Positions 11,072 to 61,361 of a stretch of 64,000 bases of DNA are shown here, piece by piece. Numbering within the stretch: the stretch's first letter is position 1; every line of letters starts with the position of its first letter. Below the pieces are notes generated by a model that had not been told where the DNA came from, made no database searches, and was given only the letters and a program-made list of their open reading frames with translations. The stretch spans positions 744,001 to 808,000 of the forward strand of contig CAMBMM010000001.1 of the NCBI GenBank assembly GCA_945868825.1. The letters are read 5' to 3'. The stretch comes from Sphingobacterium thalpophilum. Lineage in GTDB: Bacteria > Bacteroidota > Bacteroidia > Sphingobacteriales > Sphingobacteriaceae. The position numbers and the translations under genes are program-made.

Positions 11072-12559
11072 TTAGTTTGCCATTACTTTACCAGGAGTGG
11101 TATAGTTTAAAGTGCTTGGATCGTACATGGCCCAACCTGCAGACCAATCTGTAGTTCCGAAAGCACCTTTGAAAGCAACCGTTTTATCAAAAAACGAATC
11201 ACCTGTAAATTTAGCATCGGTAAATAATGCACCGCTAGCGGCTGCACCAGCAGCTACTGCAGTAAAGTTTGGTGTAGCTGCACCAGTTGCAACAAACTCT
11301 GCACCGAATGCAAAGCCTGAAGTTAATAAAGCACTTACAGTAGTAGCTACAAAGGTATTATCAGTAGTTAGACCTGCTTCAAATACTAATTTGCTAGTAG
11401 CATCTTTACCTTTAATTTGACCGTTGTTTGGTGCAGTAGTTGCATTATATTTGGTATTGCAACCGTAAATTAAGTTGTTTTTAATAACCATTGAACCTGC
11501 AGTGTAGTTATCAGAAGATTTATTACCAGATGCAGGAAGTGAATCATCGATATAAATACCTTCAGTATAGTTACCCAACACCGAGTTGAATAAACTCAAA
11601 GCTGAGTTACGACGAATTTGCGCAGCATGTTGGAAGTTGGCATTGTTATTACTAGAAGACAAAGATGATGATAATGGACCAATAATGGTTACGTTAGAGA
11701 AAATTGGGGCTGTTTTTGGAGTACCTGAAGTACCAGTTGCATCGTTATCCGATTCAAAACCGTTAGATCCAGAAACGTCAGCAATTTCTTTAACACGTTG
11801 CGCCAAGGCAAATTGCACTTTACCTACATAACCGAAATCGGTATCAAAATCGTCATCCCAAGTACCAATAGCAAGCAAGTATTTTGCATTTACGGTACCA
11901 CCAAACCATTCGAAGGCATCGTCGCCAGCACGGTAAACTTGAATGTATTCTATAGTAGTACCAGAACCAACACCACCCATAGTTAAAGAGTTAATTTCGT
12001 TGTTAGTTACAAAAGGTACACCAGCATATTCAATACGTACATATTTCATGGTACCTGAATTATCAGCAGCATTGGTACCACCATAGGTAGTATATTTTGA
12101 TGCTGATCCACCACCAGTTGGTAATAAACCACCTTCAATAACTACCTCACCTCCTGTTTGGTTAACTGGAGCTTTACCTAAAATGATAATTCCGCCCCAA
12201 TCACCTTGAGTACGAGAACCAGTAGGAAAATTAGAAGTGAATACAATAGGATTGGTTGCCGTACCAATGGCACTAATTTTAGAACCACGAGTAATAATTA
12301 AAGAACCTTTAGAGATTTTATCGCCTTTAATGATTGTACCTGGCTGAATAGTTAAGGTTGCGTCGTCTGTTACATACACAAAGCCTTTTAATAAATAAAT
12401 TTTATCTGCAGACCACGTAGTGTTTACTTTAATATCACCAGTAACTTCAACTACATTACTTGTTGGAGTTGGAGTAACAATGGGATCACTTGAGCTTTTT
12501 TTACAAGCAGCAACAACAGTAAGTGCTAAAACAGAAAATAGGATAATAGTTTTTTTCAT
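11072..12559 (-). CDS. Surface or periplasmic lipoprotein, beta-helix-like
   Basis: A 495-residue protein starting with a signal peptide and lipobox ending at Cys19 (VVAAC). A low-complexity Pro/Thr linker follows, then a long Gly/Thr/Asn-rich repetitive body (LTIQPGTIIKGDK, DWGGIIILGKAPVN, YVRIEYAG, DDAFEWFGG) that resembles a right-handed parallel beta-helix. It lies 94 bp downstream of a TonB-dependent receptor gene, so it may be a surface partner of that receptor. The receptor promoter suggests phosphate control. No enzymatic activity can be assigned. Confidence 0.7.
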   Translation of the reverse strand: MKKTIILFSVLALTVVAACKKSSSDPIVTPTPTSNVVEVTGDIKVNTTWSADKIYLLKGFVYVTDDATLTIQPGTIIKGDKISKGSLIITRGSKISAIGTATNPIVFTSNFPTGSRTQGDWGGIIILGKAPVNQTGGEVVIEGGLLPTGGGSASKYTTYGGTNAADNSGTMKYVRIEYAGVPFVTNNEINSLTMGGVGSGTTIEYIQVYRAGDDAFEWFGGTVNAKYLLAIGTWDDDFDTDFGYVGKVQFALAQRVKEIADVSGSNGFESDNDATGTSGTPKTAPIFSNVTIIGPLSSSLSSSNNNANFQHAAQIRRNSALSLFNSVLGNYTEGIYIDDSLPASGNKSSDNYTAGSMVIKNNLIYGCNTKYNATTAPNNGQIKGKDATSKLVFEAGLTTDNTFVATTVSALLTSGFAFGAEFVATGAATPNFTAVAAGAAASGALFTDAKFTGDSFFDKTVAFKGAFGTTDWSAGWAMYDPSTLNYTTPGKVMAN

Positions 12560-12653
12560 GATTGATTTTTTTGATTAATAATTTCTGTAAAAATGATAAT
12601 TTAGTGTAAGGTTTATTTAAATGAATTGTTATGAAATTGTTAAGTGTATGCTA

Positions 12654-15449
12654 TTAGAATGAGTAATTAAACGATAAAGACACATTGGTACCTAATTTGG
12701 TTTTATAAATTTCATCGTCAACAAATTGGGTGTATTTTTTATTGGCATTGCGGTCGAAATAAAATACACTCCGTTGGTTGAATATATCGCCTACATTTAA
12801 TTTAAACTCTCCTTTAGTTTTAAAAGTTTTTACACCAATCTGAAAGTCTAGTACATCGCGGGGGTCTTCCCAAACGTTTGGAAATGTAGTACCACCTACG
12901 CGGAAAATACGACGGCCAACTCGGTTGTATAAAAGGTTAAAATTGAGTTTATTGTTTGAAGTGCTGTGTTGCAAGCCGGCATTAACTACATAAGGCGATT
13001 GACCAATTAAGGGGCGCCCTGCACTGTTTGGGTTTTGATCGCCTGCAAAATTTACCTCAGAGTGGATGATAGATATATTGGTATAAAATGTAGTGCGTTC
13101 AAAAAAGGCTCTATCTGCTAAGAATTTTAAATTTTTTCTGAATTCAAGTTCAAATCCATAGGTAGTTGCTTTTGCGGCATTGCTGTATGAAATATCTGGT
13201 GTAGAGTTTACATCGTAAAAAGTAGCTTCGATAGCGTTGGTGAATTTTTTATAAAATGCCGAGATCGAAAATATTTGTCCAGCAGCCGGATAGGTCTCAA
13301 AGCGTAAATCGGCATTTAAAATTTGAGTGCGTTTTAAATTTGGATTTCCTTTTTGAACCGCTGATTGTTCGTAATCGAAATAGGCAAATGGTGCCAATTC
13401 TCTAAACTCGGGGCGGGCAACAGTTTGATAAATCGAAGCTCTTAAATTGCTTTTTTCGGTTAAACCCAAAGTAAGGTTTAGTGATGGGAGAAGATCTAAT
13501 TGATTGCGTTTCACCGTTGGCTCAAGGGGATCAAATGTTTCGAGTGATAAATTAAATTGCTCGGCACGTAGCCCCCAAACCACACGCAATTTTTCAGCCA
13601 ATTGGTTATCGAGCATGAAGTAACCGGCGTTTACCATCGAATTAGAGGTATAGCGATCGGCGCTATTGCCAATTTCGTCTAACTCGTATATGCCTTGATC
13701 GATTAAATCGTTTCCGAAAACGGTACCCAATGAACGCTGACGTATGACATTGGCGTTGGGGGTAAAGGAAGGCAATATTAAACCAATAAAACGTACATCA
13801 AAATTACGGTTTCGGTAAATGGAACTGAAACCCGTTTTTAAACTTCCTTTGTTGGCTTTTTTAGATAAGGGGAAACTTAAATTTACTTCGCCGTTAAAAA
13901 TATCTTCAGTTAAATTGGAGAATAAACGACTATTAGTTCTATCCAGAGAGGTGATATTAGCTGAATAATTTACATTCGGGTTGTTAATATCTGCTTGGTT
14001 TTTGATATAACTAATTTTACGTTGATCAGGTTGGTTATTTATAACGTTGCTATAACCCAATACCCATTTTAATTTGGTTTTCGATTCGCCAAATTTATGC
14101 TCCCCTTCTAAAGATGATTTAAGCAAGGTTTTTTGAATAAAATCGAATGCGAAAAACTTGGTTGCATTGGATTGGCCGAAATTTAAACCTGAACGACTTA
14201 AATATTGATCGTCTTGTATGCGGTTATAAATGTTTTTTAAGGTGATTTTATTATTACCAAATAAATAGGAGAAATTGGCTAAACCGCCCACAGTAGTAGA
14301 AAATTTATAGGTTTCATCTTTAAAATCGAATTCACCAGCTAAATTTCTAGAAATTTCCGGGTTTACGTTTTGTGCATTTCGGTACGAAAGGGAAATAATG
14401 GCACCTAAACGGTTACCGCTTTTTTCATAATCTTTAACTCTACCAACCGTAAATTGGTAATTTTGACCTAAAAAAGCAGTAGAATTAAAAACAGCATAGT
14501 CGGTATTAAGTGAACGTATGGCTGCTATTTCTTGAGTAGGACTTAACGTATTGTTGTAAATACTACTTGTGCTAGGAAAATTTACCGGTAAATTTCTCGT
14601 AGTGTTGAAACCTAAATAATCAGCAGCTGTTTTTTCATTACCCTTAAAATCTTTAAAAGTAGATTGTGAATTGTAGCTATATCCCACTCCATAGGTTAAG
14701 AAGTTTTGATCAGGAATATCTTTAGTTAAGATCTGAACAGCACCACCAGCAAAATCTCCAGACATATCTGGTGTAGCGGTTTTACTAATCACAATATTAT
14801 CAATCATGTTCGAAGGAACAATATCGAAAGAGAAAGCTTTACGGTTTGGCTCAGAACTTGGTAATGCGCCATTATCTAATGTTGCAGAGTTATAGCGATC
14901 GCTCAAACCACGTACAATTACAAACTTATTATCTTGAATGGTAGCACCGCTCACACGTTTCAACACATCGGCTGTGTTTTTGTCGGGCGATTTTTTAATA
15001 GATTCGGCAGAAACCCCATCGGAAATGCGTGAACTATTTTTTTGCTGTGCATACAAGGTATTGGTACTTTCTTGCTTTGCTGAAGCTGTAATAACTACCT
15101 CTTTTAGATTTTGTGTAAGGGCTTCATCCATTACAATATCTAAGGTGGTGGTTTTACCACTGGCTACCTCAATATCTGTAATTTGTTTGGTTTGATAACC
15201 TATATAAGAAAAAAGCAAGGTGTATTTTCCTGGCTTTAGTCCGGCTAATACGTATTGGCCATTTACATTGGTAGAAACTCCAGAAGTAGTTCCAGAAATT
15301 TTAACCGATAAACCAATTAGCGTTTCGCCTGTTTTTTTGTCGGTAATTTTTCCGAAAATTTTACCAGATTCTTGCGCTTTGACTTGAATTGCACTTGCTA
15401 ACATCACGATAGCTAGCATGAGTACACTTTTAAATAGTTTTAATTTCAC
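12654..15449 (-). CDS. TonB-dependent outer membrane receptor with carboxypeptidase-like regulatory domain
   Basis: A 931-residue outer-membrane protein. It has a signal peptide (residues 1-25, ending AIQVKA), a carboxypeptidase-regulatory-like domain (about 31-115: GKIFGKITDKKTGETLIGLSV), a plug domain (about 130-245, with VLKRVSGATIQDNKFVIVRGL and TPDMSGDFAGGAVQI) and a beta-barrel ending in aromatic Phe (SLSFNYSF). Expected substrate is a ligand imported with TonB energy. The Pho-box-like promoter and neighbouring ppk-ppx genes point to a phosphorus compound, which is an inference. Confidence 0.88.
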   Translation of the reverse strand: MKLKLFKSVLMLAIVMLASAIQVKAQESGKIFGKITDKKTGETLIGLSVKISGTTSGVSTNVNGQYVLAGLKPGKYTLLFSYIGYQTKQITDIEVASGKTTTLDIVMDEALTQNLKEVVITASAKQESTNTLYAQQKNSSRISDGVSAESIKKSPDKNTADVLKRVSGATIQDNKFVIVRGLSDRYNSATLDNGALPSSEPNRKAFSFDIVPSNMIDNIVISKTATPDMSGDFAGGAVQILTKDIPDQNFLTYGVGYSYNSQSTFKDFKGNEKTAADYLGFNTTRNLPVNFPSTSSIYNNTLSPTQEIAAIRSLNTDYAVFNSTAFLGQNYQFTVGRVKDYEKSGNRLGAIISLSYRNAQNVNPEISRNLAGEFDFKDETYKFSTTVGGLANFSYLFGNNKITLKNIYNRIQDDQYLSRSGLNFGQSNATKFFAFDFIQKTLLKSSLEGEHKFGESKTKLKWVLGYSNVINNQPDQRKISYIKNQADINNPNVNYSANITSLDRTNSRLFSNLTEDIFNGEVNLSFPLSKKANKGSLKTGFSSIYRNRNFDVRFIGLILPSFTPNANVIRQRSLGTVFGNDLIDQGIYELDEIGNSADRYTSNSMVNAGYFMLDNQLAEKLRVVWGLRAEQFNLSLETFDPLEPTVKRNQLDLLPSLNLTLGLTEKSNLRASIYQTVARPEFRELAPFAYFDYEQSAVQKGNPNLKRTQILNADLRFETYPAAGQIFSISAFYKKFTNAIEATFYDVNSTPDISYSNAAKATTYGFELEFRKNLKFLADRAFFERTTFYTNISIIHSEVNFAGDQNPNSAGRPLIGQSPYVVNAGLQHSTSNNKLNFNLLYNRVGRRIFRVGGTTFPNVWEDPRDVLDFQIGVKTFKTKGEFKLNVGDIFNQRSVFYFDRNANKKYTQFVDDEIYKTKLGTNVSLSFNYSF

Positions 15450-15470
15450 TTTGCTTTAATTTAGTTGGTG

Positions 15471-15527
15471 CAAACCTACCTGCATAGTGTTAGCCAGGAG
15501 TTAGCTTAATGTTAAGGAAAAGTTAAG
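15471..15527 (-). promoter_or_regulatory. Pho-box-like promoter of the TonB receptor gene
   Basis: Read on the minus strand, four hexamers CTTAAC, CTTAAC, GCTAAC, GCTAAC (starting at 15527, 15516, 15505, 15494) repeat with an exact 11-bp period. Ten bases after the last one comes TAGGTTTG (15478-15471), a -7 element. The 11-bp direct repeats and their spacing to the promoter match the known architecture of PhoB/PhoP boxes, where the activator replaces the upstream promoter element. The regulator itself is not in this window. Confidence 0.65.
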
Positions 15528-15588: not shown

Positions 15589-15596
15589 TATATTTG
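15589..15596 (+). promoter_or_regulatory. -7 element before the H1-like gene
   Basis: TATATTTG fits TAnnTTTG and lies 28 bp before ATG 15624. It supports that ATG as the start and not the earlier one at 15594, which overlaps this element. No clear -33 TTG was seen. Confidence 0.45.
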
Positions 15597-15623: not shown

Positions 15624-16034
15624 ATGAAAAATCCAGAGACAAAAATTACCAAGAAAACCCCCAAGCAAGATTTATTCGAAAAACTATCGAGCAAATTACA
15701 TCAGGCCGTAAAAAGTTTAGGTATAGACTCTGTTTTACTGAGCAACAAAATTGAAAAATCAGCAAAAAAACTGGTTAAGAGTGTATTGAAGAAAAAAGCA
15801 GTAACAGCGAAAAAAGTAAACAAGCCACTTGTCTCTACTGTATCCATTAAAAAAAACATTCAAACAAAACCAGTAAAAACAGCTACAACTACCAGCCCAG
15901 CAAAGCCCAAGGTTAGTGCAGCAAAACCAAAAGTTAGCGCATCGAAGCCTAAGGTTAGTGCAGAAAAGCCAAAGGTTAGTGCATCGAAGCCTAAAACGAG
16001 CCTCAAAACAACAACTACGAAGAAAACCTCTTAA
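15624..16034 (+). CDS. Lys/Ala/Pro-rich histone H1-like protein
   Basis: A roughly 136-residue, strongly basic protein (MKNPETKITKKTPKQDLFEK start). It has a short possibly helical N-terminal part and a Lys/Ser/Ala/Pro/Thr tail with heptad repeats. The composition resembles H1-type bacterial DNA-binding proteins that compact DNA; nucleic-acid binding is inferred from charge only. The start is chosen at ATG 15624 because the -7 element lies just upstream. It is divergent from the TonB receptor gene and precedes ppk by 100 bp. Confidence 0.65.
   Translation: MKNPETKITKKTPKQDLFEKLSSKLHQAVKSLGIDSVLLSNKIEKSAKKLVKSVLKKKAVTAKKVNKPLVSTVSIKKNIQTKPVKTATTTSPAKPKVSAAKPKVSASKPKVSAEKPKVSASKPKTSLKTTTTKKTS
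15903..16004 (+). repeat. 21-bp tandem coding repeat (KPKVSAx heptads)
   Basis: Four in-frame 21-bp units encode KPKVSAA, KPKVSAS, KPKVSAE, KPKVSAS, followed by a partial fifth (KPKTSL). Codons vary between units (aag/aaa, ccc/cca/cct), so the repeat is not brand new. Copy number may vary between strains. Confidence 0.85.
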
Positions 16035-16134
16035 TTCATTTTTTACTTCCAATTCGATAAACTTCATATTCAGTTAACATAGTTTTTTTTAGAATTGTAG
16101 GACTCCTTGAATAAAGCTAGGAGCTTGATGTTGT

Positions 16135-18186
16135 ATGAACTCTAAAAAAATACCATTCTTAAATAGAGAAATAAGCTGGCTATATTTTAACGATAGGGTG
16201 CTGCAAGAAGCGGCAGATAAAACCGTGCCTTTACTGGAGAGATTACGTTTTTTAGCCATTTTCTCTTCCAACCTAGACGAATTTTATAGAGTGCGTATTG
16301 CCATTCTAAACAGGCTAGCACGCACCAATAATAAATTCAACGATGTATTAGGCTACAACCCCAAAAAACTACTAAATCAAATTCGGTCTATTGTTGTAAC
16401 GCAAGAAAAAAAGTTTAATTCACTGTTTGAAACACAGCTGGTAAAACAATTAGCCGAAAACAAAATCTTTATCCTAAACGAACATCAATTAAATGTAAGT
16501 CGAGGAGAATTTGTTCGAAACCACTTTAACGAGCAAATACTCTCTACACTTGTTCCCATCATTTTAACAGACGAATTACCTTTCCCCGAATTAAAAGATC
16601 GCTACGAATATTTTTTCATTAAGCTCACTAAAAAATCACGTAAAACGCATGTAAAATATGCACTAATAGAGCTCCCTAAAAACCTAAAGCGTTTTTTAGT
16701 GCTTCCACAAACCAATCAACTGCAATTTGTAATTCTTGTTGACGATATTATTCGGTATTGCCTAAAAGACATATTTTATACCCTAGATTACGATACCATT
16801 GAAGCCTATACCATACAATTAACCCGTGATGCCGAACTCGACTTATCACACGATGTGAGTGATAAGTTTATAGATGTATTAACCAAAAGTTTGCAAAAAC
16901 GTAGGTATGGGAAACCCATGCGTTTATTGTGTGACCGTGAAATGCCGGCAGAAATGCGTGCTTTGCTAGTATCAAAACTGCATTTAAACAACGATAGTTT
17001 AATACCTGGCAATAGGTACCATAATTTTAAAGACTTTATTAACTTCCCTAATGTGGGTAACCCGGCTTTAGAATATGAAAAACAACTGCCCCTAAAAATT
17101 TCGGAACTAGATTTAGGAACAAGCTTATTAAACCAAATTGCCGAAAAAGACTATTTAGTAAACCTGCCTTATCAATCTTTCGATTACATTATACACTTTT
17201 TAAGAGAGGCCGCCATAGACCCTAAAGTAAAAGAAATTAAAATTACACTCTACCGCTTGGCAGAAAACTCAAGCATTATAAATGCATTAATTAATGCAGC
17301 AAAAAATGGCAAAAAAGTGGACTGCTTTTTAGAGTTAAAGGCCCGTTTTGATGAAGAAGCTAATATTTATTGGACCGATAAGCTAAGAGACGGAGGTGTA
17401 CATGTAGATTTTGGCATTTGGGATTTTAAAGTACACTCTAAAATTTGCTTAGTTACCCGTTTAGAAAAACGAAAAAAAGTATACTACGCAAACCTCTCTA
17501 CCGGTAACTTTAACGAAAAAACGGCAAAATTATATTGCGATCATAGCTTATTTACTGCAAACCAACTTATAACCAACGAAGTACAACGTGTATTTACTGG
17601 CTTGCTTAAAAAAACATTTTATAAAGACTACAAACAGCTTATTGTATCCCCGCTAGAAAGCAGAAAAAAACTTTTCCATTTAATTGATTCGGAAATAACA
17701 CATGCCAAAAAAGGTAAAGAGGCCTATATAATTCTTAAAATGAATAGCCTAACCGACCATAAAATAATTGAAAAACTATACCAAGCCAGCCAAGCAGGCG
17801 TTAAAATTGAGTTAATTATTAGAGGCATGTGCTCTTTACTACCAGGCATAAAAGGTTATAGCGAAAATATCAACATCATAAGTATAATAGATAGATACCT
17901 AGAACACGCTCGAGTGTGGATTTTTGGCAACAAAGGTGACGAAAAAATATACCTCAGTTCTGCCGATTTAATGACCCGAAATTTAGATCATAGACTAGAA
18001 GTAGGTTTCCCGATTCTGGATCCATACATCAAACTACAAATACGAGATATCATAGATTTGCAATTGAGAGACAATACTAAAGCAAGAATTATTCAATCAA
18101 ATGGCTTATCGCCACGCAAAAAACCGAAGAAAAATAATACCTTTCGGGCACAAATCAATACCTATACCTATTTAAAAAATCTATAA
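16135..18186 (+). CDS. ppk1: Polyphosphate kinase 1
   Basis: Makes polyphosphate from ATP, reversibly. The 683-residue length fits PPK1. It starts with the N-terminal helical domain (FLNREISWLYFNDRVLQEA), followed by the head domain and two phospholipase-D-like catalytic domains. VHSKICLVTRL holds the candidate autophosphorylated His, and NLDHRLEVGFPI lies near the C-terminus. The ppx gene begins on the base after its stop, so polyphosphate synthesis and breakdown enzymes are co-transcribed. Confidence 0.96.
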   Translation: MNSKKIPFLNREISWLYFNDRVLQEAADKTVPLLERLRFLAIFSSNLDEFYRVRIAILNRLARTNNKFNDVLGYNPKKLLNQIRSIVVTQEKKFNSLFETQLVKQLAENKIFILNEHQLNVSRGEFVRNHFNEQILSTLVPIILTDELPFPELKDRYEYFFIKLTKKSRKTHVKYALIELPKNLKRFLVLPQTNQLQFVILVDDIIRYCLKDIFYTLDYDTIEAYTIQLTRDAELDLSHDVSDKFIDVLTKSLQKRRYGKPMRLLCDREMPAEMRALLVSKLHLNNDSLIPGNRYHNFKDFINFPNVGNPALEYEKQLPLKISELDLGTSLLNQIAEKDYLVNLPYQSFDYIIHFLREAAIDPKVKEIKITLYRLAENSSIINALINAAKNGKKVDCFLELKARFDEEANIYWTDKLRDGGVHVDFGIWDFKVHSKICLVTRLEKRKKVYYANLSTGNFNEKTAKLYCDHSLFTANQLITNEVQRVFTGLLKKTFYKDYKQLIVSPLESRKKLFHLIDSEITHAKKGKEAYIILKMNSLTDHKIIEKLYQASQAGVKIELIIRGMCSLLPGIKGYSENINIISIIDRYLEHARVWIFGNKGDEKIYLSSADLMTRNLDHRLEVGFPILDPYIKLQIRDIIDLQLRDNTKARIIQSNGLSPRKKPKKNNTFRAQINTYTYLKNL

Positions 18187-19068
18187 TTGAGATACGCCGC
18201 CATAGATATTGGCTCAAACGCCATACGATTATTAATAGCTGACATATTTACAAAAGGAAAGACCCACACCTTTAAAAAAAATACGCTTCTACGCATTCCC
18301 CTACGCTTAGGCGAAGATGCCTTTATGCATCAACGCATTTCTGAAGAAAAAGCAGAGCAACTCATTAAAACCATTTTTTCCTTCGCCCTGCTTATGGATG
18401 TATATCAGGTAGATGATTACATGGCTTGTGCAACATCAGCCATGCGTGAGGCTAAAAACGGACCAGAATTGGTTAAAAAAATCTTCAAAACCTGTAACAT
18501 TAAAATTAATATTGTTGAAGGGCAAGAGGAAGCAAATATTATTTATGCTAGCCATATAGAACAATTACTAGATCAAGATAAAAACTACTTATATATAGAT
18601 GTTGGTGGAGGTAGTACCGAATTATCAGTTTTTTCGGCCAATAATTTAGTAGCATCTAAATCATTTGATATTGGCACCATTAGAATTCTGGATAAAAAAG
18701 TGAAACCCGAAAATTGGACCAATGCAAAAGAGTGGTTGAAGAAAATGGGTGCAAGCCATCCGAATTTAACAGCCATAGGTACCGGTGGAAACATCAACAA
18801 AATATACCGTTTGGCTAATTTAAAAGAGGGTGAAAGCCTATCTACAAAAAAATTTAACCAAGTAACCAAACAATTGCAAGCATTAACCTTAGAGCAACGC
18901 ATTGTAGAACTAGGTTTAAAGCCCGACAGAGCAGATGTAATTATACCGGCTTGTGAAATTTACGCCAACTTGTTTAAATGGGGTAATGTAAAAGAAACCA
19001 TTGTACCAAGTGTAGGCTTGGTTGATGGAATTATTCAATTACTTATCGATAAAAATTTAGGTAACTAA
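18187..19068 (+). CDS. ppx: Exopolyphosphatase / Ppx-GppA phosphatase
   Basis: Hydrolyses terminal phosphates of polyphosphate or pppGpp; it belongs to the actin-like ATPase fold. The 293 residues include phosphate-binding loop 1 (AAIDIGSNAIRLLIADI, residues 4-20) and loop 2 (YIDVGGGSTELSVF, near 137). It is short, having only the two actin-like lobes without the HD extension of E. coli Ppx. It starts at TTG 18187 directly after the ppk stop codon, so translation is likely coupled. Ppx versus GppA specificity is not resolvable by sequence reading. Confidence 0.9.
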   Translation: MRYAAIDIGSNAIRLLIADIFTKGKTHTFKKNTLLRIPLRLGEDAFMHQRISEEKAEQLIKTIFSFALLMDVYQVDDYMACATSAMREAKNGPELVKKIFKTCNIKINIVEGQEEANIIYASHIEQLLDQDKNYLYIDVGGGSTELSVFSANNLVASKSFDIGTIRILDKKVKPENWTNAKEWLKKMGASHPNLTAIGTGGNINKIYRLANLKEGESLSTKKFNQVTKQLQALTLEQRIVELGLKPDRADVIIPACEIYANLFKWGNVKETIVPSVGLVDGIIQLLIDKNLGN

Positions 19069-19568
19069 TACTTAATACCCGCTTTTTTAAACAGAAAGTG
19101 TATGAGCCAAATAGGGCCAATTAATAAAAACTTCAAATCATCAAAAAATGAAGGTTTTTTACCTTCAATTTTATGACCGATAAATTGGCCAGCCCAAGCC
19201 AAAACAAAAATACCTAAACAGCTTTGCCACATGGCGGGGCCTCCTAGTGCTGCCCATTTTTCTAGGGCAATAATTCCCCCAGAAAAAACAAACATCAGTA
19301 AAAGCATTATATACGATAATACCGGAGATAAGCGGTAGTAGTAATAAATAGAGAAGGCAATAAAAAAAGAAGCCCAATTGATATAACCTTGGTATTGGCC
19401 TAAAAAACCCAATGTTGGGAACGGAATTGACCAAATAAGGCCAAAAAGACTGAATACAATAGCGGGCACACAAATCCAATGAATAGTTTTGTTGGTGTGG
19501 TTTTGGTGGCTTTCTGCGTATTTTTCAAAATACACATCTACTGGGCGAAGGGTTTGTTTTGTAGCCAT
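19065..19568 (-). CDS. Mpo1/DUF962 family membrane protein
   Basis: A 167-residue membrane protein with RPVDVYFEKYAESHQNHTNKTIHWICVPAIVFSLFG at the N-terminus, four or so hydrophobic spans, and GQFIGHKIEGKKPSFFDDLKFLLIGPIW near the C-terminus. The His-rich pattern is that of the Mpo1-like (DUF962) family, whose yeast member is a 2-hydroxy fatty acid dioxygenase of sphingolipid breakdown. Role in this bacterium is unknown. Its stop overlaps the ppx stop by four bases (convergent). Confidence 0.82.
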   Translation of the reverse strand: MATKQTLRPVDVYFEKYAESHQNHTNKTIHWICVPAIVFSLFGLIWSIPFPTLGFLGQYQGYINWASFFIAFSIYYYYRLSPVLSYIMLLLMFVFSGGIIALEKWAALGGPAMWQSCLGIFVLAWAGQFIGHKIEGKKPSFFDDLKFLLIGPIWLIHFLFKKAGIKY

Positions 19569-19574
19569 ATTTAC

Positions 19575-21128
19575 TTATTTAGCAAAAGCAACCGAACGTG
19601 TTTCACGGATAACGGTTACTTTAATTTGTCCAGGATACGTCATTTCAGTTTGAATACGGTTCGAAATATCGGCGGCCAATACTTCTGCCTCGGCATCGGT
19701 AACACGTTCACTTTCTACCACTACTCGTAATTCTCTACCGGCTTGTATCGCAAAGGTTTTTTCTACTCCTGGGTACGACAGAGCTAATGATTCTAATTCT
19801 TTCAACCGCTTAATATAGCTTTCAACCACCTCACGGCGGGCACCCGGACGGGCGCCAGAAATGGCATCACAAGCCTGAATAATGGGCGAAATCATCGAAG
19901 TCATTTCTATCTCGTCGTGGTGAGCACCAATGGCGTTACACACTTCCGGATGTTCTTTATACTTCTCGGCCAATTGCATCCCTAAAAGTGCGTGTGGCAA
20001 TTCGGGGTTATCGTCAGGCACTTTACCAATATCGTGGAGCAAGCCCGCACGTTTAGCTAATTTTACGTTTAAACCCAATTCGGCAGCCATAGTGGCACAA
20101 AAATTAGCTACCTCACGTGAGTGTTGCAGCAAGTTTTGTCCGTACGATGAACGGTAACGCATACGGCCCACCATCCGAATTAACTCGGGGTGTAAACCAT
20201 GAATACCCAAATCAATAACGGTACGTTCCCCAATTTCTACAATTTCGTCTTCAATTTGTTTTTTGGTTTTGGCCACCACTTCCTCAATACGGGCTGGGTG
20301 AATACGACCATCGGTTACCAAACGGTGTAAAGCCAAACGGGCAATTTCTCTACGTACCGGATCAAAGCCCGATAAAATGATTGCTTCCGGAGTATCGTCT
20401 ACAATAATTTCAATACCGGTAGCCGCTTCGAGGGCTCTAATATTACGGCCTTCGCGACCAATAACACGACCTTTAACCTCATCACTTTCGATATTGAAAA
20501 TAGATACGGTATTTTCGATGGCACTCTCGGTAGCGGTACGCTGAATGGTTTGAATAACCACCTTTTTAGCTTCTTTAGAGGCCGTTAGCTTGGCTTCGTC
20601 CACAATATCTTTAATCTGCATCATGGCTTGCGTACGGGCCTCTTCTTTCAGCGCTTCTACCATTTGGTTTTTTGCTTCCTCGGCCGATAAATTAGCTAAG
20701 GTTTCCAATTGGCTTACTTGTTGAGCTTTCACCAAATCAAGTTCTTCTTGCTTTTTACGAGTCAATTCCGTTTGCTTTTCAAAATTCTGGCGGCTTTGAT
20801 CTAAATCTTGCTCCTTACGGCTTAAATGCTCTAGCTTTTGGTTGAGCGATTGCTCCTTTTGGCGCAAGCTATTTTCCCGCTGGTTGGCTTGGTTGTTTTT
20901 TTCACTAATTTCTTGCTCGTGTTCCGATTTCATTTGCAAGAACTTCTCTTTAGCCTCTAATAATTTATTTTTTCGTAAGATTTCCGCATTTTCTTCGGCA
21001 TCTCTCAAAATTTTCTTGGCTTTTGCCTGAGCGGCAACTTCTTCACTTTGGTAAAAACGTTTCAACATAAACCTGCCGGCACCAAGGCCAAACAGTAAAC
21101 TTCCTACCACATATGCTATTATTTCCAT
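19575..21128 (-). CDS. rny: Ribonuclease Y
   Basis: Membrane-anchored endoribonuclease that initiates mRNA decay. An N-terminal membrane span ([16 protein letters not shown]) is followed by a long coiled coil (about 25-170), a KH domain ([21 protein letters not shown]) and an HD domain ([25 protein letters not shown]). From ATG 21128 it is 517 residues, close to the family norm. An upstream in-frame ATG at 21158 would add ten unusual residues. It is 6 bp upstream of the Mpo1-like gene. Confidence 0.95.
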
Positions 21129-21148
21129 TTTGTTTATAAATAATAAAA

Positions 21149-21238
21149 CCGTTAACAATTCTTAAGTGCAGGCATGTGTATTCGCGGCTTGCTCGAAGCA
21201 ACGAATAGCTAGCTAGTGAAACCTAAAAACCTTAACGG
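21149..21238 (-). ncRNA. Possible structured RNA between zapA and rny
   Basis: The 141-bp gap holds CCGTTAA (21149-21155) matched by TTAACGG (21232-21238) as a 7-bp outer stem. Inside lies a hairpin, TATTCG + TTGCT paired to AGCAA + CGAATA (21179-21207), with a four-base bulge on one side. An outer stem, large internal bubble and terminal hairpin recall 6S RNA, which follows zapA in gammaproteobacteria, but this element is short. It could also be an mRNA leader structure for rny. Confidence 0.25.
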
Positions 21239-54619: not shown

Positions 54620-55741
54620 ATGTATACTGAACCAAAAATTTTTAACGATGGAGAGCTAAACAAAAGAGCCTACATCCATTTCAACTACAAAGGAAAGCGT
54701 GCCAGAATTTATAATGGGAATCTACTAAAACTAAGCATTCATCCAAACAGGAGCAAAACCGCTAAAGAGAGGGAGCGCCTATTAAATGTACTGCTCTTCG
54801 AACTAAAAGATGCACTTAAGAATAATACCTACTTAAAAGAAGAAGAACAACGAGCACCAATAAGTTTATCAGAATGCCTTGAAAATGCCTTAAATAGCAA
54901 GCAAGACTCCGATTTGAGCGATACTTATAAAAGAGATTTAAAAACTGTCTATAATCAATTCATTGCGTTCTTAACAGAAGATGAAAAACGAGCACCTCTT
55001 TGCTTATTAAAAATCAATAGAATACAAGCTTTTCTATCCCAATTTCAATCTTCAGGTACTTATTATATGAATAAAAGGAGAAACTTGGCTGTGCTCTTTT
55101 CAACTGCAGGTATGCTTCTTGAACAACCCCTTGACAGCGTAACTAAAACCAGCAAAAGAAAAACACATAGTAAGCTCCACAAAATATATGAACCCGAGCA
55201 ATTAAGGTCTGTTTTAAGCTATTTAAGGACTAATAATCAACAACTATGTTTATGTTGTCTGATAACCTACGGATGCTTCCTGAGACCGCATATAGAGGTT
55301 AGAAAGCTAACTGCTGGACACTTTAAGAAAGACAACTCTGAAATCCATTTATCAGGTAGTGAAAACAAGGGAAGAAAGGTAAGAGTGGTATATGTACCAG
55401 ATTATGTTAGGAAAGAAGTGGAAGCTCTCCTACCCTATATAAAATCCACTGATAATATATTTTCTAAGGACATTCAGCCCTATAATGAGGCGTATTTTAA
55501 TACCGCCTGGACAAGAGCCTGGAGCAAGATGTTTCAATTGGGCATCATTCAAGAGAATCAGACTATTTACTCCTTCAGACACACTGCTGCTGTAGATGTT
55601 TATAGAAGAACTAAGGATGTAAATTTACTTAAGAGCTTATTGGGACATTCGAGCATTGTGGTCACACTTAAATACTTACGGGGATTGGGAGAACATAATG
55701 AAGAAATCTTGAGAACTGCTGCCCCACAGCTGGATATTTAA
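54620..55741 (+). CDS. Tyrosine-type site-specific integrase
   Basis: Probably inserts the element at tRNA-Phe. The 373-residue protein has an N-terminal arm-binding-like region (1-75), a SAM-like core-binding domain (about 85-175) and a catalytic domain. Visible catalytic residues are Arg222 (CFLRPHIEVRKL), Arg320 (YSFRHTAA, the usual His of HxxR being Tyr317), His343 (LLGHSSI) and Tyr352. This pattern is common in Bacteroidota integrases. It reads inward from attL, 68 bp from the repeat. Confidence 0.9.
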   Translation: MYTEPKIFNDGELNKRAYIHFNYKGKRARIYNGNLLKLSIHPNRSKTAKERERLLNVLLFELKDALKNNTYLKEEEQRAPISLSECLENALNSKQDSDLSDTYKRDLKTVYNQFIAFLTEDEKRAPLCLLKINRIQAFLSQFQSSGTYYMNKRRNLAVLFSTAGMLLEQPLDSVTKTSKRKTHSKLHKIYEPEQLRSVLSYLRTNNQQLCLCCLITYGCFLRPHIEVRKLTAGHFKKDNSEIHLSGSENKGRKVRVVYVPDYVRKEVEALLPYIKSTDNIFSKDIQPYNEAYFNTAWTRAWSKMFQLGIIQENQTIYSFRHTAAVDVYRRTKDVNLLKSLLGHSSIVVTLKYLRGLGEHNEEILRTAAPQLDI

Positions 55742-56311
55742 TTCATTTAAAACATAGTGTAAATCAAATAAATCTCTGCCAAGAGATATCCCTTAATACC
55801 GATATAATGAACCTTTACAGATAGATTATACTCTTATTTTAAGGAAATTTGGGGTACGGGGTTCAGGCAAATCGTTTCCTTTCAGGGGTGCGGGCTCTAC
55901 CATATAGGGGATAATCTCCTCTGTATATACTCTTCAAATAATATTTAATCATACTATGCGTTTTCTGAACTTTTGTAGAGGGGAATTAATACCGTGTGAT
56001 TGATTTCTAATAGCCACTTGTTATACTAAAATATCACAACTTAGATTTAGTGCTTAAATAACTGATATACAGTATATTGTATATGATAGTTGTATGGGAG
56101 TATTTATATGCTTTTTACACAAACAAATCTGTTTTAATTCTCAATTGTTTACTATTTCCAATTCATTGAAAATGGTTATTGCCGAAGTCTATGCCAGTGC
56201 ACTAAATTTTATTTGTATGAGTAAATACAACTATATTAGGGGTGTATTCTGAATAATAAATTACCTCAATTTGGGAAATAGAAAATTTGGAAAATATTTT
56301 AAAAGTGAAAA
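55742..56311. other. Non-coding 570-bp gap between integrase and methyltransferase genes
   Basis: AT-rich and without a long ORF. It contains a locally GC-richer patch (55850-55915) holding a 25-codon minus-strand ORF, and an imperfect palindrome (arms atataca 56065-56071 and tgtatat 56078-56084). The palindrome could be an operator for the R-M-like operon. Its distance from the 56312 start (about 230 bp) is long. Nothing else was recognised. Confidence 0.5.
55826..55903 (-). CDS. Possible 25-residue proline-rich peptide or gene remnant
   Basis: ATG (55903-55901) to TAA (55828-55826) encodes MVEPAPLKGNDLPEPRTPNF and five more residues. Codon use and composition look more protein-like than the surrounding AT-rich DNA. 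It may be a real small gene, or the tail of a lost element gene. I know no function. Confidence 0.25.
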   Translation of the reverse strand: MVEPAPLKGNDLPEPRTPNFLKIRV

Positions 56312-56989
56312 ATGACCGAATTGACAGAAGAAATAAAGATAGAACATCAAGTAAAATCCAAAAAGCGAGTTACTGACCACGGAGAAGTTTTTACTAACCA
56401 ACGTGAAGTAAACGCTATGCTTGATTTGGTAAAACACGAAACAGAAAGAATTGACTCTCGTTTTTTGGAACCTGCGTGTGGTAACGGAAACTTTTTAGCT
56501 GAAGTATTGAAACGAAAATTAACAATTGTTGACAGCCGATATAGCAAAAGCCAAATTGAATGGGAACGCTATTCCGTTATTGCAGTTTCGAGCATTTACG
56601 GAGTGGACATTTTAGAAGATAATGCCCAAGAATGCCGAGACCGATTGCTTGGCATTTACACAGAATGGTATTCTAAAACATTCAAACAAGTAAATAATGA
56701 TTGTATTCGTTCTGTTCGGTTTTTATTGAGCAGAAATATACTTTGGGGTGATGCTTTGGACTTTACTAATCCTGAAACCAAACAACCAATCATTTTTTCT
56801 GAATGGAGTGCCGTAAACGGCTCTATGCTGAAACGCAGAGATTATATGTTTAAATTTTTGGTAGAGAAAACACACCAGTTTGCAATGTTCAATGACGAAG
56901 GTAATGCAGCAGCAATTGACGAACCCGTAAAAGATTTCCCGCTTATTCATTTCTTAAAACTTGGAGAAGATGATACAAACGAACTATAA
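56312..56989 (+). CDS. SAM-binding methyltransferase-like subunit lacking NPPY
   Basis: A 225-residue protein with the fold start of N6-adenine DNA methyltransferases. It has GEVFTN (residues 24-29), motif [13 protein letters not shown] (51-62), an acidic [10 protein letters not shown] (97-106) and [11 protein letters not shown] (146-156). The catalytic NPPY motif is absent where expected (about 160-170 reads [11 protein letters not shown]). It is much shorter than a full enzyme. The next gene starts inside its last 20 bases and has NPPY, so the two may form one enzyme. A regulatory role is possible too. Confidence 0.72.
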
Positions 56990-58490
56990 TCCCGATGTAC
57001 TCTCCTGCCTTGCCAATTTGAGCAATGACGAAGTGTTCACACCACCGAGTTTGGTAAACGACATTTTGGATTTGCTTCCTGTTGAATTGTGGAGCAACCC
57101 AAACGCCAAATTTTTAGACCCTGTTTCAAAAAGTGGTGTGTTTTTACGGGAAATGGCAAAGCGACTGATGCACGGTTTGGAAACTCAAATACCCGACAAG
57201 CAAGAACGCATTAACCATATTTTTAGCCAGCAATTGTATGGCATTGCCATAACCGATTTAACGGCTTTGCTTTCTCGCAGAAGCGTGTATTGCTCCAAAA
57301 CTGCCAATGGTAAATACTCCATTTGTGACACCTTTGATGATGAGCAAGGAAACATTCGTTACAAACGAATGAAACACACTTGGCAGAGTGGAAAATGTAC
57401 CTATTGCGGTGCAAGCCAAGAAGTGTACGACCGAGAAGATGCTTTGGAAACATACGCTTACAATTTTATTCACACAGACAAACCTGAAAAAATATTCAAT
57501 ATGAAATTTGACGTTATTGTTGGAAATCCGCCTTATCAGTTAAGTGATGGTGGTGCACAAGCAAGTGCTTCCCCTATATATCATTTATTTGTAGAACAAG
57601 CCAAAAAACTAAATCCCAAATATTTAGTAATGATTATTCCTTCCAGATGGTTTGCGGGCGGCAAGGGGCTTGACACATTTAGAGCAACAATGCTAAAAGA
57701 CAGAAGTATAAAAAAAATTGTAGATTTTCTTGATGCAGCAGATTGTTTTCCTGGTGTAGAAATAAAAGGTGGTGTATGTTATTTTTTGAGAGATAAAGAT
57801 TATAGCGGAGATTGTGAAGTAATTCCTGTTGTTAAATCTGAGTTCAAGAAACCAATGCTTAGAAATATTGGTGCTTATGATGTTTTAGTGAGATTAAACG
57901 AATCCATTTCAATTTTAGAAAAAGTTCGAGCCAAACAAGAAAAATCTTTTAGTGAACATATGTCTTCTCAAAAGCCTTTTGGTTTCAGAACCAATTTTAG
58001 GGGATTTAAGAAAGTACCGTTTAAAGGAGCAGTTAAAATTTATTCATTTAAAGAAATTGGTTGGATAGAAAGAGAAAAGGTAATTCAAAATCCACAATGG
58101 ATTGATGAATATAAAGTGATAATTAGTCGTTCATACAATGGTGGTTACACTTATCCACACCAAATTATTAATAAACCAATCGTTGCCGATAAGGGTAGTT
58201 GCTGCACAGAAACTTATATTGTTTGTGATATATTAGCGAATGAGAAGCGTGCAATTAACCTAAAAAATTATATCACGACGAAGTTTTTTAGATTTTTGGT
58301 GTTTCTAAGAAAAGTTTCACAGGATAATCCAAAAGATAGGTTCGCTTTTGCTCCAATACAAAATTATGATGAACCTTGGACAGACGAAAAACTTTACAAA
58401 AAATATGGATTAACAAATGATGAGATTACTTTTATAGACTCAATGATACGTCCAATGGATTTAACTCAAAATGACGACACCGATGAGTAA
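56970..58490 (+). CDS. Eco57I-type adenine methyltransferase-like protein with NPPY and zinc-knuckle-like region
   Basis: A 506-residue DNA methyltransferase-like protein. DEVFTPP (about 20-26) is followed by [19 protein letters not shown] (48-66), which is motif I with the central ACG/GSG pattern altered. A Cys pair CTYC (143-146), with other Cys upstream, may bind zinc. NPPY (186-189, in [16 protein letters not shown]) is intact. The C-terminal half (about 240-500) probably recognises DNA. ATG 56970 is chosen over TTG 56961. It overlaps the previous gene by 20 bp and the next by 20 bp. Confidence 0.82.
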
Positions 58491-61032
58491 AAAAGAATTT
58501 TTCCCGCCCCGTCCGTCCACGAATCCAATAATTTATGCTTATGAATTGGTTGGTGTGGATACGCACAAGGGCTTGCTCAAAATCGGTTTCACCGACCGCA
58601 ATGCCCAACAGCGTATTAAAGAGCAGTTAGGTACGGCAGCTATTCAATACAAAATTGCATTTGAAGAGTCTGCAATGAAACGTGACGGGAGTTCGTTTAC
58701 CGACCACGATGTACACCGCCTTTTAAGAGAATGGAAAGTTGTAAACGCAAGTGGCGAATGGTATAAATGCACATTAAATGATTTGCGAAGAGCTATTCAC
58801 CAAATTAAAACAGGAGAAAAAACAGAAGAAAACCGTGTACTTACTTTCGGTATGCGACCAGAACAGGAAGAAGCCGTAAATAAGTCAATCGCCTATTTCA
58901 AGAGTTTCAAAAAAGAAAACAAAGACAGAACACCCCATTTCCTTTGGAACGCCAAAATGCGTTTCGGAAAAACATTTGCCAGTTATCAATTGGCAAAAAA
59001 AATGGAATGGAAAAAAGTGTTGGTTTTGACTTTCAAACCAGCCGTTGAAGATGCTTGGAAAGAAGATTTACTTTCTCACGTAGATTTTAAAGGTTGGCAA
59101 TTCATTTCTAAACACGCAGCAGAATTATCGAGCCAAGATATTGACACCAAAAAACCTTTGGTTTGCTTTGGTTCGTTTCAGGATTTTTTAGGCAAAAACA
59201 CCAACACAGGCGGTATCAAAACCAAAAACGAATGGGTACACGCCACCGTTTGGGATTGTATCATTTTTGACGAATATCATTTTGGAGCTTGGCGAGAAAG
59301 TGCCAAGGATTTATTCGGTAAAGATTTAGAAGCCGAGAAGGAAATTGAAGAATACAAAAAGATTGAAAAAGAAGGGATTGCCGAAGAAGACAAAGCAGAA
59401 CACTTAGAGAAAATTATCCCAATCAGCACCAATCACTATTTGTATTTGTCGGGCACTCCGTTTCGTGCCATTAGTTCAGGCGAATTTATAGAAGAACAAA
59501 TTTTCAATTGGACGTATTCAGACGAGCAAAGGGAAAAAGGAAATTGGGACGATTCAAAAGGTACCAATCCTTATGCAGCCTTGCCAAGAATGGTAATGCT
59601 TACTTATCAATTACCCGATTCTATTCGACAAATTGCAATGCAAGGCGAATTTGACGGTTTTGATTTGAATATATTCTTTAAAGCAGAAGGTGAAGGAAGA
59701 ACAGCCCGTTTCAAATATGAAGATGAAGTACAAAAATGGTTGGATTTAATTCGGGGTTCGTTTAGCGAAACTACCGTTGACCATTTGAAAATGGGTGCTA
59801 AAAAACCGCCTTTCCCATTTTCACACGCCCCATTGCTAAATGTATTGAATCATACCTTTTGGTTTTTGCCGACCGTTGCAGCTTGTAACGCAATGGCATT
59901 ATTGCTCGAAAAGCGCCAAAATATTTTTTACAAAGATTATAAAGTTGTTGTTGCCGCAGGAATGCAAGCAGGCATTGGCATAGAAGCATTGCCTCCCATT
60001 TTAGATGCAATGACTGACAATCCCTTGGAATCAAAAACCATTACACTTTCGTGTGGCAAACTTACAACAGGTGTTTCAGTAAAACCGTGGACAGGAATTT
60101 TTATGTTGCGTAATTCTTCCAGTCCTGAAACCTATTTTCAAGCAGCATTTCGAGTACAAACGCCTTGGGTAATTAAAAACCCCGACAGCAAATCGCCCAA
60201 CAAAGAAGAAATTCTAAAAGAAGAATGTTATGTTTTTGACTTTGCTCCCGACCGAGCGTTAAGACAAATTGCCGATTACAGTTGCCGACTGAATGTTAAT
60301 GAATCGAACCCAGAAGCAAAAGTTGCCGAATTTATAAACTTCCTGCCTGTATTGGCTTATGATGGAAGTTCAATGAAACAAGTTGATGCCGCAGGAATTT
60401 TAGATATGGCAATGAGTGGCACAACTGCAACGCTTTTGGCAAGACGTTGGGAAAGTGCATTGCTCGTAAACGTGGACAACAACACGCTTGCTCGTTTGAT
60501 GGCAAACGAAGAAGCAATGAAAGCTTTAATGAGCATTGAAGGTTTTAGAAATTTGAATCAAGACATTGAAACCATTATCAATAAATCGGAAGCCGTTAAA
60601 AAAGCAAAGAAAGAAGCCAACGATAAAGAACTGACCAAAAAACAAAAGCAAGAATTAACAGAACAAGAAAAAGAATACAAAAGCCTTAGAAAACAAATAC
60701 AAGACAAGTTAATCAAGTTCGCTACTCGTGTTCCTGTGTTTATGTATTTGACAGACTACCGAGAAAGAAGTTTGAGAGACGTAATCACACAGTTAGAACC
60801 CGGACTTTTCAAAAAGGTAACAGGACTAACCGTAAAAGACTTTGAGTTATTGGTAAGTCTTGGTGTTTTCAATTCATCATTGATGAATGATGCGGTATAT
60901 AAATTCAAACGATATGAAGATTCAAGTTTGGCTTACGTGGGGATAAATAAGCACCAAGGAGAAGATATTGGACTTTATGACACCATTGTAAAGAGAGATG
61001 ATTACGAGGAGAATTTTGTGAATTTGGATTAA
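58471..61032 (+). CDS. GIY-YIG/T5orf172-SF2 helicase fusion, probable restriction subunit
   Basis: An 853-residue protein. Residues about 18-110 form a GIY-YIG/T5orf172-like nuclease module (IYAYEL 21-26, KIGFT 37-41, Arg48, Glu96). Residues about 125-570 form a DEAD/DEAH-type helicase: motif I RFGKT (164-168), DEYH (267-270), SGTP (327-330), TTGVSV (532-537) and QAAFRVQ (557-563). A Lys/Glu-rich coiled coil (about 590-680) and a C-terminal domain follow. A helicase-nuclease next to a methylase suggests an ATP-dependent restriction subunit. ATG 58483 is an alternative start. Confidence 0.82.
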
Positions 61033-61138
61033 ACACCCCCATCTGGGGTCAATATGCGACCTCTACATTGCAATATATTTTAGGTAACTTTAATGTGGTA
61101 TCTGATATGAGCAAATTAAATTTAAGTTCCATAAATCT

Positions 61139-61249
61139 ATGTTAGAGATAATATGTTTTAGTTTATTTGGAATTGTATATGTCGGTGTATGTGGGTATCT
61201 GAGTGCAAAAGGAATGAAATTTTGGGAGGAATATGATGAAAAAGATTAA
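61139..61249 (+). CDS. Possible 36-residue single-span membrane peptide
   Basis: Encodes a hydrophobic N-terminal stretch (LEIICFSLFGIVYVGVCGYL) and an acidic tail (FWEEYDEKD). The profile fits a small inner-membrane protein. No similarity is recognised, and short AT-rich ORFs can arise by chance. Confidence 0.3.
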   Translation: MLEIICFSLFGIVYVGVCGYLSAKGMKFWEEYDEKD

Positions 61250-61334
61250 ATCGATGCTGCGAGTAAGAAGATTTAAGTACCTAAGCAATATTAATAATAT
61301 AACAGGAACATTTCAACTAACCAAGATACAGTAG
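61233..61334 (+). CDS. Possible 33-residue basic peptide
   Basis: Starts with two consecutive ATG codons, six bases after GGGAGGA, a rare strong Shine-Dalgarno-like match in this genome. The product (MMKKIKSMLRVRRFKYLSN...) is Lys/Arg-rich. It overlaps the previous small ORF by 17 bases. Speculative. Confidence 0.25.
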   Translation: MMKKIKSMLRVRRFKYLSNINNITGTFQLTKIQ

Positions 61335-61361
61335 AGTACTTATCGACACCTTTGATTACAG

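Follow-up and report, generated by a model that had tools for sequence, protein, structure and literature searches.

Genomic context of the receptor promoter

The 64-kb stretch of DNA analyzed here (hereafter, the window) encodes, on the minus strand, a predicted Pho operon of two genes. The first gene (12654..15449, minus strand) has a GTG start and encodes a TonB-dependent receptor (TBDR) of 931 aa (PF13715, PF07715 and PF00593). The second (11072..12559, minus strand) encodes a 495-aa lipoprotein-like receptor partner, for which Pfam and NCBIfam yielded no match, and which is 41-44% identical to the second genes that follow Pho-box TBDR genes in one Saprospiraceae (L307) and one Ignavibacteriaceae (L309) genome. 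On the plus strand, divergent from the receptor, lie a gene for a Lys/Ala-rich protein (15624-16034), polyphosphate kinase 1 (ppk1, 16135..18186; TIGR03705, 781 bits, above cut-off) and a Ppx/GppA-family exopolyphosphatase-like gene (18187..19068; PF02541 above and TIGR03706 below cut-off). The Lys/Ala-rich protein gene has a -7-like element of its own, TATATTTG (15589..15596, plus strand), with a spacing that is not of the Pho type. By its family match, ppk1 is a neighboring phosphate-metabolism gene, for which we claim no link to the array promoter described below.

In the window species, the Lys/Ala-rich gene, ppk1 and the ppx-like gene (15624-19068, plus strand) separate the receptor from the rny and Mpo1-like genes (19065-21158, minus strand); in many relatives, rny and the Mpo1-like gene directly precede the receptor on the same strand. 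A TTAAC/ATAAC pair between the receptor and lipoprotein genes (about 12628-12654) was considered as a second Pho promoter and rejected, as no phased -7 element was seen. Elsewhere in the window (54620-63203), the translations, judged by eye, include an integrase-like open reading frame (ORF) and, after it, two DNA-methylase-like as well as helicase-like ORFs; the region resembles an integrated island of the mobile or restriction-modification type.

Upstream of the receptor gene, the hexamers CTTAAC, CTTAAC, GCTAAC and GCTAAC (15527-15522, 15516-15511, 15505-15500 and 15494-15489, respectively, minus strand) recur at an 11-bp period, forming a direct-repeat array (15489..15527). The last unit is followed by a 10-bp spacer, ACTATGCAGG (15479..15488, minus strand), and a -7 element, TAGGTTTG (15478-15471, minus strand), which conforms to the TAnnTTTG type of the Bacteroidota primary sigma factor (PMC6847099). 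The four hexamers, their exact 11-bp period and the 10-bp gap in the original prediction proved correct to the base, and the predicted interval, 15471-15527, coincides exactly with the array plus the -7 element. A Pho box consists of at least two direct-repeat units at an 11-bp period located about 10 bp upstream of a -10 or -7 element; the receptor promoter has four such units and a gap of 10 bp. Between TAGGTTTG and the GTG start codon (15449) there are 21 bp, and, based on the spacing in Flavobacterium johnsoniae (PMC6847099), transcription is predicted to start 4-5 nt past the G of the -7 element (15465..15466, minus strand). No TTTG or TTG was present at the expected -33 position of the receptor promoter, where the sequence is GCTAACTCCTGGCTAAC, and this absence is consistent with the earlier proposal that the -33 element is replaced by an activator box.

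Strict matches in the window and its genome

The window contains two overlapping three-unit TAAC arrays, which together make up the single four-unit array, compared with a mean of 0.033 three-unit arrays and no four-unit arrays in dinucleotide shuffles of the window (n=60). The composite pattern TAAC-N7-TAAC-N10-TAnnTTTG has a single match in the window, and no match appeared in the 60 shuffles. Across the whole 1.66-Mb genome of the window species, the three-unit pattern without mismatches is found only at the receptor promoter, and the two-unit pattern with N10 and the -7 element, again without mismatches, is found twice. When two mismatches were allowed, neither the three-unit nor the composite pattern was enriched in this genome over the reversed control, and genome-wide scans at two to three mismatches likewise showed no enrichment compared to reversed or shuffled controls. 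Hence, within this genome only matches without mismatches carry information, and the case for the promoter type rests on strict matches, orthologues and spacing. Many of the two-mismatch matches in this genome were set aside as lying inside genes or lacking a phased -7 element.

The two exact composite matches are located at the receptor promoter and at the promoter of a phosphate-transport operon, in which a DUF47 (PhoU_div-like) gene is followed by a gene for a PiT phosphate transporter. Immediately upstream of the DUF47-PiT promoter, on the same strand, lies a gene for a PhoR-like sensor kinase, which matches the PnpS, WalK and PhoR models with scores below cut-off. The genes for the PhoR-like kinase, DUF47 and PiT follow one another on the same strand, and the Pho-type promoter lies between the first two (G000:C2:167500-175000, L183). 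A PhoB-like regulator gene (C1:505858-506547) has a three-unit array upstream, TAAT-TTAAC-TTAAT in 11-bp steps, located 21 bp (10+11) before a degenerate -7 element, TAGTTTAG. The best NCBIfam match of the encoded protein is TIGR02154 (PhoB), at 231.7 bits against a curated cut-off of 296.2.

A family search of this genome identified no PhoU, and no array was found upstream of its only PstS-like gene (C3:42224). The Pho regulon of this genome therefore seems reduced and unusually small. Phosphate sensing in this reduced genome may be tied to PiT rather than to Pst.

Conservation of the array and its phase

We compared the upstream regions of orthologues in up to 120 related genomes. Within the family of the window species, a TAAY-N7-TAAY pair is located exactly 10 bp before the -7 element in 44 of the 45 TBDR orthologues, and many of these promoters extend to five to seven units. 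The same spacing was found in 30 of 30 DUF47-PiT promoters. In the phoB promoters, the pair is located at 21 bp (10+11) in 29 of 34 cases and also at 32 bp in 29 of 34, amounting to three units. Receptor, phoB and PiT promoters from other families showed peaks at 21 bp (18/60) and 32 bp (19/60); outside the window's family, the DUF47-PiT promoters mostly lacked an array at N10. In-phase arrays are also carried by pstSCAB-phoU operons with verified gene order, for example, in genome G011, where four TTAAC/CTAAC units are followed by N10 and TACCTTTG.

These comparisons establish the conservation of the array and a phase rule, whereby the array ends 10+11k bp before the -7 element. Distances outside this 10+11k series are rare, so that the position of the box relative to the core promoter is fixed to whole helical turns. 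The same box precedes the pst, pit and phosphate porin genes of the lineage, as well as the regulator gene, in 29 of the 34 phoB promoters and in the window genome, a placement that does not by itself imply autoregulation.

In a genome from another family (G118), the receptor gene is divergent from a phoB-like gene and is followed by a gene for a protein similar to the 495-aa partner. A second array-like set of TAAT units occurs at this locus between the receptor and lipoprotein genes, 10 bp from TACTTTTG (L354:4629-4690).

Scans by sequence and geometry alone

We separately performed unbiased scans, in which only the sequence and geometry of the pattern were considered and genes were disregarded. 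A scan of the phylum (395 genomes) produced 23 matches, compared with 0 for the reversed control, and a scan of 84,980 genomes produced 29 matches, which came almost entirely from Bacteroidota, Ignavibacteria and Chlorobi; three were on contigs labeled Burkholderiaceae, Dehalococcoidia and Patescibacteria. The 44 first genes downstream of the matches in both scans included approximately 17 receptor-type genes, 7 Porin_O_P (phosphate-selective porins), 4 PstS-like, 3 DUF47, 1 PHO4 and 1 alkaline phosphatase, and the 23 second genes included 6 PstS-like and 3 PHO4. Most matches thus precede phosphate porins, PstS, DUF47/PiT or TBDR-lipoprotein pairs, and a few precede unrelated genes. A pattern defined by sequence and geometry alone finds phosphate genes.

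The search recommended with the original prediction, for the same pattern before phosphate and TonB genes, was positive at DUF47-PiT, phoB, pstSCAB-phoU, phosphate-selective porin/PstS and TonB genes. The pattern is not missing from known phosphate genes, an outcome that would have counted against the prediction; the reading as a Pho-box-like promoter gains computational support from geometry, conservation and association with phosphate genes.

The box and a TAnnTTTG promoter precede porin/PstS or PstS genes in genomes of the Ignavibacteria type and of Kryptonium (L308, L315, L316 and L319), which suggests that promoters of this type predate Bacteroidota sensu stricto. Pho-type promoters also precede a flippase-like (LPG_synthase_TM) gene and a glycosyltransferase-like gene (L336 and L351), possibly involved in the remodeling of membrane lipids or surface sugars under phosphate limitation.

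Relationship to known Pho boxes

The PhoP box of Bacillus subtilis consists of TT(A/C/T)ACA repeats, usually four, at an 11-bp period. The array described here resembles it in its TTAACA-like units, their period and the typical number of four, but the phylum, the lineage of the regulator and the core promoter all differ. The boxes bound by cyanobacterial SphR consist of CTTAACCT units recurring every 11 bp, with 3-bp linkers (PMC1906773), and share with the present array the CTTAAC core, the 11-bp period, at least three tandem units and the location upstream of pst and phosphatase genes; unlike those boxes, which belong to cyanobacterial promoters, the array keeps a distance of 10+11k bp from the Bacteroidota TAnnTTTG -7 element. 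The Escherichia coli PhoB box likewise has 11-bp tandem units and a 10-bp gap and stands in for the upstream core element (PMC1906773, PMC4415409). However, its core is TGTCA rather than TAAC, it works with sigma70 rather than with a TAnnTTTG -7 element and the corresponding sigma factor, and it differs from the arrays in relatives of the window species, which reach about seven units.

Within the phylum, the closest motif is that of Riemerella anatipestifer PhoP, TTTAACA, obtained by DAP-seq and compared by its authors with that of ArcA (PMC9603813). The regulator is of the PhoB type, the core is TTAACA, and a TonB-receptor promoter is among those bound, but in the available part of that report the motif comes without a phased 11-bp array or a -7 spacing and is not framed as a Pho box. 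In F. johnsoniae, the TBDR Fjoh_0545 and the lipoprotein Fjoh_0546, encoded in the phoBR cluster, are upregulated on phosphate depletion by log2 8.0 and 9.9, respectively (PMC8115612, a paper in which neither 'Pho box' nor 'promoter' occurs). This pairing of a TonB receptor and a lipoprotein beside phoB has the same gene order as L354 of G118, and gene order and annotation, rather than a comparison of sequences, lead us to infer that the window pair is orthologous to Fjoh_0545/0546. PhoB of Bacteroides fragilis binds a 512-bp fragment of the pstC promoter (PMC3547664), and a marine study, in its accessible part, marks Pho boxes near plcP without a Bacteroidota consensus (PMC4796936).

In the searchable literature, we found neither a defined Bacteroidota Pho box nor a description of a phased array combined with the -7 element. 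Judged by its sequence, therefore, the array is a lineage-specific form of the already known Pho-box type. The phase rule, by which TTAAC units recur at 11 bp and the last one lies 10+11k bp ahead of TAnnTTTG, makes phosphate regulons predictable from sequence in Bacteroidota and the neighboring Ignavibacteria and Chlorobi, and provides a testable template for phosphate-controlled promoters in Bacteroidota. It also suggests that the geometry between activator and sigma factor has survived the shift in core promoter sequence from -35/-10 to -33/-7.

A model of activation and its alternatives

PhoB protomers bind head to tail, each on one 11-bp unit (PMC4415409), and in E. coli the Pho box is located 10 bp before the -10 element (PMC1906773). 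The F. johnsoniae -7 element extends from T-12 A-11 to G-5 (PMC6847099), which places the TA of the present -7 element where the TA of the E. coli -10 element sits and makes the 10-bp gap about equal in the two. Together with the data above, this geometry makes it very probable that the array is a Pho box, that is, an activator site for a PhoB-type response regulator that would take over the role of the -33 element in recruiting the primary sigma factor. Weighing against this reading are the score of the PhoB-like protein below its cut-off, the small regulon, the mostly missing N10 arrays at DUF47-PiT promoters of other families, and the scan matches that precede unrelated genes or come from contigs labeled outside Bacteroidota, Ignavibacteria and Chlorobi. 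The model that we infer for the receptor promoter extends to PhoB binding, sigma contact, phosphate dependence and the transported substrate. Upon phosphate limitation, a PhoR-like kinase would phosphorylate PhoB, and each 11-bp TTAAC/CTAAC unit would be occupied by one PhoB~P protomer, in a head-to-tail row on a single face of the helix. The promoter-proximal protomer, on the unit with 10 bp between its TAAC and the TA of TAnnTTTG, would then touch sigma region 4, substituting for a -33 element, a contact that would recruit RNA polymerase with the Bacteroidota primary sigma factor. The operon driven in this manner, comprising the TBDR and its lipoprotein partner, probably takes up phosphorus compounds.

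Among the alternatives, the array could bind another regulator of the OmpR/PhoB family with a TTAAC-like tandem site, with the phosphate genes constituting only part of its regulon. The genome encodes four Trans_reg_C regulators, and the R. anatipestifer PhoP motif, with 583 peaks, was judged ArcA-like in the available part of that work (PMC9603813). Nevertheless, the strong enrichment of phosphate genes among the unbiased matches, the array before phoB itself in 29 of the 34 relatives and the receptor adjoining a divergent phoB in other families make such a regulator improbable. Even less probable is a regulator-independent phased A/T element, either UP-like or bent DNA, that strengthens the promoter constitutively: TTAA steps do recur in helical phase just upstream of the core promoter, but conservation falls on TAAC, separated by a variable spacer, rather than on A-tracts, and the array is selective for phosphate genes.

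The failure of loose matches (two to three mismatches) to rise above expectation is what a chance repeat in A/T-rich DNA would predict. Four-unit arrays were nevertheless absent from all 60 shuffles, the spacing is identical in 44 of 45 orthologous promoters, and the phylum scan gave 23 matches against 0; we consider the probability of a chance origin negligible, given that conservation already contradicts it.

A hairpin linking the -7 element to the start codon

In addition to its phased array, the receptor promoter of the window contains an inverted repeat that extends from the -7 element to the GTG start (15447..15477, minus strand) and would form a weak hairpin (-2.6 kcal/mol). The left arm consists of the ACTTTTG of the -7 element and the next 3-6 nt, and the right arm reaches the GTG or TTG start codon, so that the layout in the receptor genes of the family is ACTTTTGxxx...x'x'x'CAAAAGTG. 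The hairpin is weak in the window species and its two closest relatives and strong in most other relatives. For the 32-nt leaders of the window's family (28 non-redundant), the mean fold energy was -6.46 kcal/mol, compared to -3.65 +/- 0.35 kcal/mol for chimeras of their halves (0/5000), and the arms covary between genera (leaders including L038-L064). Leaders of DUF47-PiT, phoB and out-of-family receptor genes showed no such hairpin.

We rejected a hairpin within the Pho-promoter transcript itself: with the start expected 4-5 nt past the -7 element, the left arm is located upstream of it and would be missing from this RNA, and only read-through RNA could form the hairpin. The gap between the -7 element and the end of the co-directional gene upstream (rny, then Mpo1-like) is just 75-90 bp in many relatives, which leaves space for nothing but the boxes. 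Hairpin energy differed between receptor genes with co-directional and divergent neighbors as a trend only (p=0.07, relatedness uncorrected). A guard against read-through expression of the receptor gene is a plausible function for a structure with this layout. More specifically, and only tentatively given the weak hairpin of the window and the trend-level link to co-directional neighbors, the -7 element might double as a hairpin arm that hides the start codon in read-through RNA from rny and the Mpo1-like gene, such that only transcripts started by PhoB would be translated. The late genes of phage T4 provide a precedent for such a fail-safe.
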